Part shown: piece by piece, positions 3,002 through 42,991 of the stretch
Layout: the number at the start of each line of letters is the position of its first letter
Numbering within the stretch: the stretch's first letter is position 1
Assembly: GCF_004358205.1 (NCBI RefSeq)
Contig: NZ_SMYO01000021.1
Location: 1-51,807, forward strand
Reading direction: 5' to 3'
Length of the DNA stretch: 51,807 nucleotides
Source of the DNA: Bacillus salipaludis
Lineage (GTDB): Bacteria > Bacillota > Bacilli > Bacillales_B > DSM-18226
Translations under genes and position numbers: made by a program
Notes under the pieces: generated by a model
The model's database searches: none
What the model was told of the DNA's origin: nothing
What the model saw: the letters and a program-made list of their open reading frames with translations, nothing else

Positions 3002-3370
<369 letters not shown>

Positions 3371-3390
3371 TAGAAGAGGTTTCAAATAAT

Positions 3391-3573
3391 GGCTAAGTTA
3401 AAGGACAATGTTGATTTTTAAACAAAGTTGATTGCAGCGGAAGGCACGAAGACTCCTGTGGGAGTACGGGACAGGGGAGACCCCGCAGAAGCGAAGCGAC
3501 GAGGAGGCTCCCCGAAACGCCCACGAACCGCTTGTGCCTGGAGCGGAAATCAACAACCAGGTTTAACAGAGCC
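3391..3573 (+). repeat. Family A element, copy 1 (MITE-like, 183 bp)
   Basis: Non-coding element, nearly identical to 42659-42841 and related to the inverted copy at 33638-33821. Its ends form an imperfect terminal inverted repeat of about 27 bp: the start and the reversed end share GGCT, GTTAAA and TGTTGATTT in the same register. It is flanked by a direct repeat AAATAAT (3384-3390 and 3575-3581), which looks like a target-site duplication. GC-rich internal palindromes suggest a folded RNA. No open frame of note. Confidence 0.88.
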
Positions 3574-3592
3574 TAAATAATAGAAGTGAGTG

Positions 3593-4606
3593 ATGATTTT
3601 GGTTAAAACATGGGATCAGCTGGAAGTGGTACAGCCAACTGTATTAAAAATGATAAAAAACAGTATACAGAAACACCGAGTTGCCCATGCATACCTACTT
3701 GAAGGCATTAGGGGGACAAGCAAAAAAGATATTGCACTTTTATATACAAAAGCTCTTTTTTGTGAATCCCCGATGAGTGGGTATAAACCATGTGAAGCCT
3801 GTTCAAACTGTAAGCGAATTAATCATGGCAACCACCCTGATGTGCATATAGTTGAACCGGATGGTCAATCCATTAAAGTAGAGCAAATCAGAAACCTCCA
3901 GGCGGAGTTTTCAAAAAAGGGAGTTGAATCCCTAAAAAAGGTCTATATTCTGGCACATGCTGATAAAATGAGCGTCAGTGCCTCCAATAGCTTGCTAAAG
4001 TTCCTTGAGGAGCCAAGTTCGCAAACGACAGCCTTCCTGCTAACGGAGCAGCCACAGAAAATCTTACCTACCATTCTTTCAAGGTGTCAGGTATTAACAT
4101 TCCAGCCGTTATCACCACATGCAATGGTGGAACAATTAATAGAAAATGGTGTTGATCCAATAAAGGCACCACTTCTTGCCCAATTAACGAATAGTCTGGA
4201 AGACGCATTGTCATTAAATGGCGATGATTGGTTTGCACAAGCCCAAAAAGTCGTGGTAAAATTATATGAGGTGTTGAAAAAAAATCCATTGGAGGCGATG
4301 ATTATGCTCCAAGGGGATTGGTTTCCTCACTTCAAAGAGAAAGAACAGATTAATCGTGGTTTAGATCTATTACTTCTTATTTTTAAAGATTTACTATATA
4401 TTCAGCTAGACAAGCAGGAGCAGATTGTTTATCTCGAAGATAGTGAACGGCTAAAACAATTTGCCTTGCAAGCATCTAGGCGGCGCTTAACCGATCAAAT
4501 GTCAGCTATTCTTGAAGCAAAGAAAAAGCTTGCGGCTAATATGAATCCTCAGCTTATGATGGAACAGCTTGTGCTAAAATTGCAGGAGGGATCTTCGTTT
4601 GTATGA
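3593..4606 (+). CDS. holB: DNA polymerase III subunit delta'
   Basis: A clamp-loader subunit of about 336 residues that works with DnaX and HolA to load the sliding clamp. The N-terminal AAA+ fold has a degenerate P-loop (EGIRGTSKKD), the zinc cysteines lie in the CESPMSGYKPCEACSNC stretch, and the SRC finger (ILSRCQ) follows. Start is uncertain: ATG 3593 is used, but TTG 3599 gives a protein (MVKTWDQL) that aligns residue for residue with the B. subtilis start, and neither has a strong ribosome binding site. Its 3' end overlaps ricT. The family A repeat lies just upstream, and without it the gene would start about 37 bp after darA. Confidence 0.92.
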   Translation: MILVKTWDQLEVVQPTVLKMIKNSIQKHRVAHAYLLEGIRGTSKKDIALLYTKALFCESPMSGYKPCEACSNCKRINHGNHPDVHIVEPDGQSIKVEQIRNLQAEFSKKGVESLKKVYILAHADKMSVSASNSLLKFLEEPSSQTTAFLLTEQPQKILPTILSRCQVLTFQPLSPHAMVEQLIENGVDPIKAPLLAQLTNSLEDALSLNGDDWFAQAQKVVVKLYEVLKKNPLEAMIMLQGDWFPHFKEKEQINRGLDLLLLIFKDLLYIQLDKQEQIVYLEDSERLKQFALQASRRRLTDQMSAILEAKKKLAANMNPQLMMEQLVLKLQEGSSFV

Positions 4607-33637: not shown

Positions 33638-33821
33638 GGTTTTGTTACGCTTGCCCGTTGATTTCCGCTCCATGTGCTTCGCTTTCCGCGGGCGGTTTCG
33701 GGGAGCCTCCTCATCGCTTCGCTCCTGTGGGGTCTCCCCTGACCCGTACTCCCGCAGGAGCGAAGCGCCTTCCACTCCAATCAACTTAGTTAGTAAATTA
33801 ACACTGACCATTAATACAGTC
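33638..33821 (-). repeat. Family A element, copy 3 (inverted, decayed)
   Basis: Reverse-orientation relative of the 183-bp elements at 3391 and 42659. The central part (33657-33785) matches well, including GTTGATTTCCGCTCC and ACTCCAATCAAC; the outer 20-30 bases on both sides are recognisable but mutated. No flanking direct repeat is left. Copy 3 carries GCTTCGCTTTCCGCGGGCGG, a variant of the copy 1/2 arm. In B. subtilis a Met/Glu tRNA pair lies in this gap, as I recall; none is seen here. Confidence 0.8.
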
Positions 33822-42617: not shown

Positions 42618-42624
42618 ATAAGAA

Positions 42625-42656
42625 AAAGAGTGCTTCCTATGAAGCACTCTTTTTTG
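42625..42656 (+). terminator. ftsH terminator
   Basis: AAAGAGTGCTTC (42625-42636) pairs perfectly with GAAGCACTCTTT (42641-42652). Its T tail forms part of the 8-base direct repeat at the edge of the family A element. Confidence 0.85.
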
Positions 42657-42658
42657 TT

Positions 42659-42841
42659 GGCTATGTAAAAGAACAATGTTGATTTTTAAACAAAGTTGAT
42701 TGGAGCGGAAGGCACGAAGACCCCTGTGGGAGTACGGGGTAGAGGAGACCCCACAGGAGCAAAGCGACGAGGAGGCTCCCTAGACCGTCCACGAACCGCT
42801 TGTGCCTGGAGTGGAAATCAACAACCAAGTTTAACAGAGCC
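42659..42841 (+). repeat. Family A element, copy 2 (MITE-like, 183 bp)
   Basis: Same length and almost the same sequence as 3391-3573. The terminal repeats are GGCTATGTAAAA at the start and TTTAACAGAGCC at the end. An 8-base direct repeat TTTTTGTT flanks it (42651-42658 and 42842-42849). It has inserted in the T tail of the ftsH terminator, between ftsH and coaX. Confidence 0.9.
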
Positions 42842-42991
42842 TTTTTGTTATAACTTTAGGTAAGTCAACCAAGCCTCTTGAAACGTCCATAAGGACTCGC
42901 AAACGACGAGTTTTCTTTACATGACCTAACATAATTATGTTATTATGTTTTCAGTGTGAGAAATGATAAATCTGTAAAGTGAGTGATAGAT
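42842..42991. other. Upstream region of coaX
   Basis: Holds the right target duplication of the family A element, a weak ACTCG/CGAGT hairpin (around 42896-42912) before a T-rich stretch, and an AT-rich segment with TATTAT-like hexamers near 42939-42946. I cannot assign a convincing -35, so the coaX promoter is not resolved. Confidence 0.4.

Follow-up and report, generated by a model that had tools for sequence, protein, structure and literature searches.

We analyzed a stretch of 51,807 nucleotides from Bacillus salipaludis (contig NZ_SMYO01000021.1), referred to here as the window. Near its start, a short element lies between darA and holB and points the same way as both genes. The features of this locus, together with two further copies of the element in the window, are as follows.

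3032 to 3370, plus strand: darA (yaaQ), cyclic di-AMP receptor, the upstream neighbor (NF058593 and PF06153; protein start taken at 3041 in the family search)
3383 to 3390, no strand: left copy of the 8-bp target duplication, CAAATAAT, with its first base changed relative to the empty site TAAATAAT at loci L091 and L032
3391 to 3573, plus strand: 183-bp non-autonomous element (MITE), oriented like darA and holB (33-copy alignment)
3391 to 3417, plus strand: left terminal inverted repeat, IS1595 type A, GGCTAAGTTAAAGGACAATGTTGATTT, sharing 22 of 27 positions with the left end of L148, an IS1595 element
3427 to 3554, plus strand: GC-rich structured core, a module common to transposon types (model R1, 147.4 bits; covariation)
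3547 to 3573, minus strand: right terminal inverted repeat, GGCTCTGTTAAACCTGGTTGTTGATTT on this strand, 22 of 27 positions identical to the right end of L148
3574 to 3581, no strand: right copy of the target duplication, TAAATAAT, as in the empty site
3590 to 4606, plus strand: holB, DNA polymerase III delta prime subunit, the downstream neighbor (NF005972 and TIGR00678)
33638 to 33820, minus strand: third, degenerate copy, antisense to both neighbors (core 33657 to 33785; outer limits approximate)
42651 to 42849, plus strand: second copy, 183 bp (42659 to 42841), with the exact duplication TTTTTGTT on each side, just after a perfect hairpin at 42623 to 42654

A sequence-only reading had placed the element at 3391 to 3573 with ends mirrored over about 27 bases, and both points proved correct. 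The ends are 27-bp imperfect terminal inverted repeats with GGCT, GTTAAA, and TGTTGATTT in register, and 19 of the 27 positions (70%) are complementary between them. No open reading frame of at least 90 amino acids in the window's list overlaps the element, and frame 1, the one frame read, holds two stops. At gathering scores, Rfam matched only 5S and 16S rRNA in the whole window, and at the element only a chance-level match of 12.7 bits was seen, so no known RNA family was matched.

The sequence-only reading had also described a flanking duplication of 7 bases. A duplication is present, but it is 8 bp long, and its left copy (CAAATAAT) differs from the right (TAAATAAT) at one position. A precise empty site, of the kind that reading had proposed looking for, was found in the closest named relative, Bacillus sp. 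UNC438CL73TsuS30, whose holB is 98% identical (the nearest records are Neobacillus and Bacillus). There the junction (L091, also L032) reads ...GGTTT-TAAATAAT-AGAAG..., with TAAATAAT once and without the element; the ancestral 8-mer was therefore TAAATAAT, and the left copy has mutated. The window aligns to this relative without gaps on either side of the element (97.0% identity across 2990 bp and 98.8% across 3427 bp), and exactly 8 bp are common to both alignments. Thus the insertion took away no DNA, as had been supposed. Without the element, the gap between darA and holB would be short, again as expected, at 28 nt from the darA stop to the GTG taken as the holB start (a figure that varies with the start codon chosen) rather than about 37.

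The gap itself has a history. Our survey took 87 loci, two of them without darA, which left 85 rows with some genomes present in both collections. In three rows the gap contains yaaR (DUF327): in Neobacillus terrae (L130) by a match to PF03885 (E = 5.7e-38), and, as judged by the look of the sequence, in Mesobacillus zeae and Niallia nealsonii (L134 and L138). The remaining 82 gaps, at no more than 284 nt, are too short for it. Because yaaR is already gone from the relative with the empty site, its loss predates the 183-bp insertion. Related insertions occupy the same gap in nine of the 85 rows, which represent seven lineages besides the window, since two pairs are each one genome seen twice. 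These include short forms without the core (L106 and L133). Junctions are visibly different at L092, L106, and L133, and L099 and L102 look by eye like one shared old insertion. Other repeat-like inserts, unlike the element by eye, were seen in the gap of other species (L048/L146, L042/L116, and L113), and the gap therefore seems to be a permissive landing site after the loss of yaaR.

The element is repeated well beyond this gap. Three copies lie in the window, and the nearest genome (G001) gave 45 matches when 40 of its 82 candidates were scored, a single copy in some cases accounting for more than one match. The end pattern GGCTNTGTTAAANNNNNNTGTTGATT, allowing up to 3 mismatches, occurred 68 times in G001, 140 times in G003, and 373 times in G012, against 1, 0, and 0 for the pattern reversed; G012 also held 195 core pattern matches. 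Among the collected loci were 207 distinct core copies, 160 of them full enough to classify by their ends: 91 had type A ends on both sides, 30 had one type A end only, 35 had neither end recognizable, and 4 involved a different end, type B (GGCTGTTTTC...). Both ends were recognized in 94 copies, of which 93 had enough flank for a duplication test at lengths of 4 to 12. Flank identity peaked only at 8 (0.83, versus 0.53 at 7 and 0.51 at 9). At that length 36 of the 93 duplications were perfect and 61 had at most one mismatch, compared with a mean of 0.46 perfect duplications (maximum 4) in 200 shuffles of partners, which rules out chance. The target consensus over 92 copies was TTT (68, 80, and 88% T), eight free positions, and AAA (86, 70, and 63% A).

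Core-less short forms of about 77 bp recur in G001, G003, G012, G019, G020, G022, and G028 and at L106. End pairs 77 bp apart were found in G001 and G003, and the center of the short form gave 49 matches in five of seven genomes. In the short forms, one copy remains of the GGAGCGGAA direct repeat found on either side of the core; apparently, these forms arose by deletion between the two repeats. A distant-mode search of phages gave no match to the 183-bp element; among plasmids, 13 of 72,556 records matched, none covering 80% of it.

The darA-holB element is thus real, and its mobility is well supported. It is short, has no transposase gene, carries terminal inverted repeats and a target duplication with an empty site, and is multicopy and dispersed; it is an IS1595-type MITE and, as a MITE, an ordinary one. 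A non-mobile regulatory hairpin or attenuator of the operon, flanked by a repeat through chance, would suit the way in which the element folds (z = −3.6) and its place between two co-directional genes. We give that reading practically no credence, given the exact empty site in a relative 97 to 99% identical, the many dispersed copies with their perfect 8-bp duplications, and a search of 3300 to 3700 in which no terminator-like site was found. A transposase of the ISL3 family was the first guess for the mobilizer. ISL3 transposases make 8-bp AT-rich duplications and have GGCT-type ends, so the duplication length and the first bases fit. However, PF01610 was matched in only one of 24 same-genus genomes, partially (50 to 106 of 240) and not in G001, compared with nine of 40 among all genomes, and ends that match over 27 bp were found on IS1595 elements instead. 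An ISL3 mobilizer is therefore unsupported in the host lineage and very unlikely.

Looking for full-length transposons with the same ends, as the sequence-only reading had suggested, yielded IS1595-family elements with 8-bp duplications in G001 and in two other genomes of its genus (G009 and G020). In G001, the 1542-bp element L148 (2001 to 3542) has matching ends, is flanked on each side by TTCTAATT, and encodes an IS1595-family transposase of 278 aa (NF033547, E = 1.2e-47; PF12762, E = 8.9e-11); the PF12762 match is limited to 3 to 110 of 153 positions, so this copy has probably decayed. The element in G020 (L164) is flanked by TTTGAAAT on both sides and encodes a 316-aa transposase (NF033547, 3 to 212 of 215, E = 7.6e-64), and the one in G009 (L161) has a duplication matching at 7 of 8 positions. 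Identity to the ends of the 183-bp element is 22 of 27 at both ends for L148 and, for L161 and L164, 21 of 27 at the left and 20 of 27 at the right; with 5 to 7 of 27 positions differing between same-side ends, an exact partner was not found among the related genomes searched. PF12762 was detected in 9 of 36 genomes and in 7 of the 22 within the genus; the other 15 had no match, among them G003 with its 140 end matches.

Type B is a second IS1595 end type. It stands at both ends of L162, which encodes a 354-aa transposase (NF033547, E = 1.1e-63) and has low-complexity flanks (AAAAAAAA / AAAAAAAA), and at one recognized end each of L159, L160, L163, and L167. Small extra open reading frames lie 3' of the transposase genes in L148 (3220 to 3445, 75 aa) and L162 (2112 to 2648, 178 aa); they look like passenger genes, and neither matched a family above its cutoff. 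The core was absent from the four IS1595 elements searched, so a simple internal deletion within these elements does not account for the MITE.

The proposal of a MITE moved by a DDE transposase is thus upheld by the empty site and by full-length IS1595-family elements with 8-bp duplications. We are highly confident that the family responsible is IS1595 and that the MITE carries a structured module common to several transposon types. For the darA-holB copy itself, resemblance of the ends suggests that an IS1595-family transposase would have moved it. Such an enzyme, made elsewhere in the genome, would recognize GGCT(N)TGTTAAA...TGTTGATT ends and join the element into an AT-rich TTT-N8-AAA target, leaving the 8-bp duplication. 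Entry into the already yaaR-less gap followed the split from UNC438CL73TsuS30.

Of 120 genomes sampled across the order, 66, covering 41 of 74 genera, gave a match to the core of about 128 to 129 bp. Genome G108 has four copies of it (L344 to L347) between type B ends; read by eye, two have exact duplications (TTTTAAAA and AAAAAGAA) and two match at 7 of 8 positions. Older B-ended copies of the core occur in G001 (L024, L027, and L028). Two plasmids of Peribacillus sp. R9-11 carry the core about 85 bp away from where an annotated IS1182-family transposase gene begins. Identity between these two copies is 98.7% across 1720 bp spanning gene and core, and inverted arms flank gene plus core in the one copy searched over its full length. 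A related remnant occurs in G140 (L318). Across 33 loci outside the genus or on plasmids, type A ends with an 8-bp duplication (at most one mismatch) were found in four (L320, L324, L334, and L340) and type B in one (L342, the same copy as L344); most others had unclassifiable ends. Present between both IS1595 end types and within an IS1182-family element, the core behaves as a transferable module, captured by or common to these transposons. The R9-11 IS1182-family element (L364, 1428 to 3240) appears to be inserted in a palindrome, with ACAGACATATACCTATGTCTGT on both sides, and its core, upstream of the transposase gene, points away from that gene.

Copies between co-directional genes, as called by a simple open reading frame rule, were mostly in sense: 56 versus 11 antisense in a sample made up of the 30 best matches in G001, 800 kb plus 20 windows of G012 (many of these positioned on listed copies, without regard to strand), and our window. 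Another 24 copies in this sample lay between convergent or divergent genes. In the window, the darA-holB copy and the one at 42.7 kb are in sense, and the degenerate copy at about 33.7 kb is antisense. When split by duplication, the ratio of sense to antisense was 15:2 for perfect duplications, 8:2 for one mismatch, 7:1 for two or more, and 26:6 for copies not delimited. The bias is therefore present in the youngest copies, and would stem from oriented insertion or from very early selection.

Replication was rejected as the direct cause of orientation. By a hand count with approximate origins and termini, which took the first 100 of 195 copies in one listing, 225 of 291 copies (77%) were co-oriented with the fork, and so was 77.3% of the long-ORF length sampled in G012. 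Elements flanked by two genes that both opposed replication pointed the same way as those genes in nine of nine cases; where both genes ran along replication, 69 elements followed them and 22 did not (Fisher P = 1e-5). That sample was stratified, with contrary copies over-represented: 40 contrary stretches versus 40 of 150 co-oriented ones, taking every listed contrary stretch in G019, G022, and G033 except one near-terminus G033 copy. In convergent and divergent gaps of G012, copies favored replication by 12 to 6, and a weaker effect of this kind may still contribute. Targeting of terminators was likewise rejected, as terminator-like sites in the flanks of 92 copies were too few and too even (11 left-sense, 3 left-antisense, 5 right-sense, and 8 right-antisense). 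In one region of G012 (C1, 517 to 1101 kb; L193 to L207), all 12 listed copies ran against replication, with normal GC skew and open reading frames; one guess is that this region was once inverted and later inverted back.

We then considered the structure of the core. RNAalifold on 24 diverse cores predicted 32 pairs, 10 of which had at least one double-sided change. In a larger alignment of 115 matches (A2), of which 12 are antisense hits to copies already included, 15 pairs had double-sided changes compared with 5.4 in shuffles (0 of 500 reached this), and the covariation score was 0.120 versus 0.079 in shuffles and 0.011 to 0.052 in slid controls. Without antisense rows, the counts were 15 versus 5.4 pairs for A2 (101 distinct rows) and 13 versus 4.8 for alignment A3 (86 rows), each with 0 of 200 shuffles. 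Because the alignments had been fitted to the model and the copies share ancestry, these numbers are biased in favor of the structure. Clear swaps were seen at single pairs (U-A 76 / C-G 31; A-U 48 / G-C 38). In 187 rows, the inner helices had 94 G.U versus 33 A.C cells, a count in which related copies recur many times and from which the outer helix and a single conserved U.G pair (178 of 187 cells) were excluded. Unpaired changes in the same rows were near equal (C>U, 63 of 1874; G>A, 152 of 3985). This combination favors a fold of the sense-strand RNA. Fold energy was uninformative about strand, as greater stability of the plus strand, seen for 132 of 160 copies, was likewise seen for 109 of 142 shuffles.

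We infer a putative role of the core at the RNA level. Our best guess is that the module would act in the transcript that it joins, as a folded RNA settling, or tolerated, mainly in sense. Structure and orientation could instead reflect DNA-level processes only, such as oriented insertion and palindrome repair, an account that leaves mobility aside and concerns the RNA role alone. The sense bias already seen in copies with perfect duplications suggests an origin at insertion, shared ancestry inflates the covariation counts, and fold energy has no strand signal beyond composition. Furthermore, 32 of 39 core-less short forms run with replication (hand count), much like full copies, and the outer helix shows the opposite of the inner ones (A.C 37 versus G.U 11 cells). 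Set against this are the G.U excess of the inner helices and the near-equal unpaired rates, and we put the DNA-only account at a little under an even chance. More tentatively still, the core may be a selfish or host-useful module of the Bacillales, passed between unrelated transposon chassis, active as RNA in sense, and directing its carriers along transcription.

The element resembles MITEs of IS1595-family insertion sequences in its ends, its 8-bp AT-rich duplication, its lack of a transposase gene, its many copies, and its full-length relatives in the genus. It differs from them in its interior, a conserved structured core present in many genera rather than a deleted IS1595. REP/BIME sequences are also intergenic palindromic repeats found in transcripts, but they are linked to Y1 (IS200/605-like) transposases and are not known to leave duplications. 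The repeats bcr1 to bcr3 of the Bacillus cereus group are, in the available text of two reports, small, high-copy, intergenic, MITE-like, and often in transcripts (PMC3446304, PMC6542083). Their mobility has been tied to a TTTAT motif and a recombination-like mechanism (PMC6542083), and by these descriptions, as opposed to sequences, they are set apart from our element by its DDE-type ends and 8-bp duplications. Bhal-1 of Bacillus halodurans, a stem-loop family of 74 bp with 36 copies (PMC2267715), is another structured intergenic repeat in a Bacillales genome and, going by its description, could be a fragment of the core. Mutator-like elements, with oriented insertion upstream of promoters (PMC3942029, in the portion available), offer a precedent for DDE elements whose unequal ends fix orientation, although no terminator preference was seen beside the 183-bp element. 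Over-representation of IS1595 elements between co-directional genes, as stated in accessible passages of PMC9208149, agrees with the contexts seen here. We found no description of the element in the open-access literature, although one may exist elsewhere, and none in the available portions of PMC3852290, PMC11578231, PMC2267715, PMC3446304, PMC9208149, PMC3942029, and PMC6542083; the core's sequence words gave no hit in open-access papers.

The unusual point is the presence of a single conserved, co-varying core within different transposon types across much of the order, in copies that are mostly in sense with their neighbors from the start. If the core is functional, an abundant element for which we found no name would lie between genes in many Bacillales. 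Recent pairs of empty and filled sites, such as that between darA and holB, make its function testable at loci that otherwise match.
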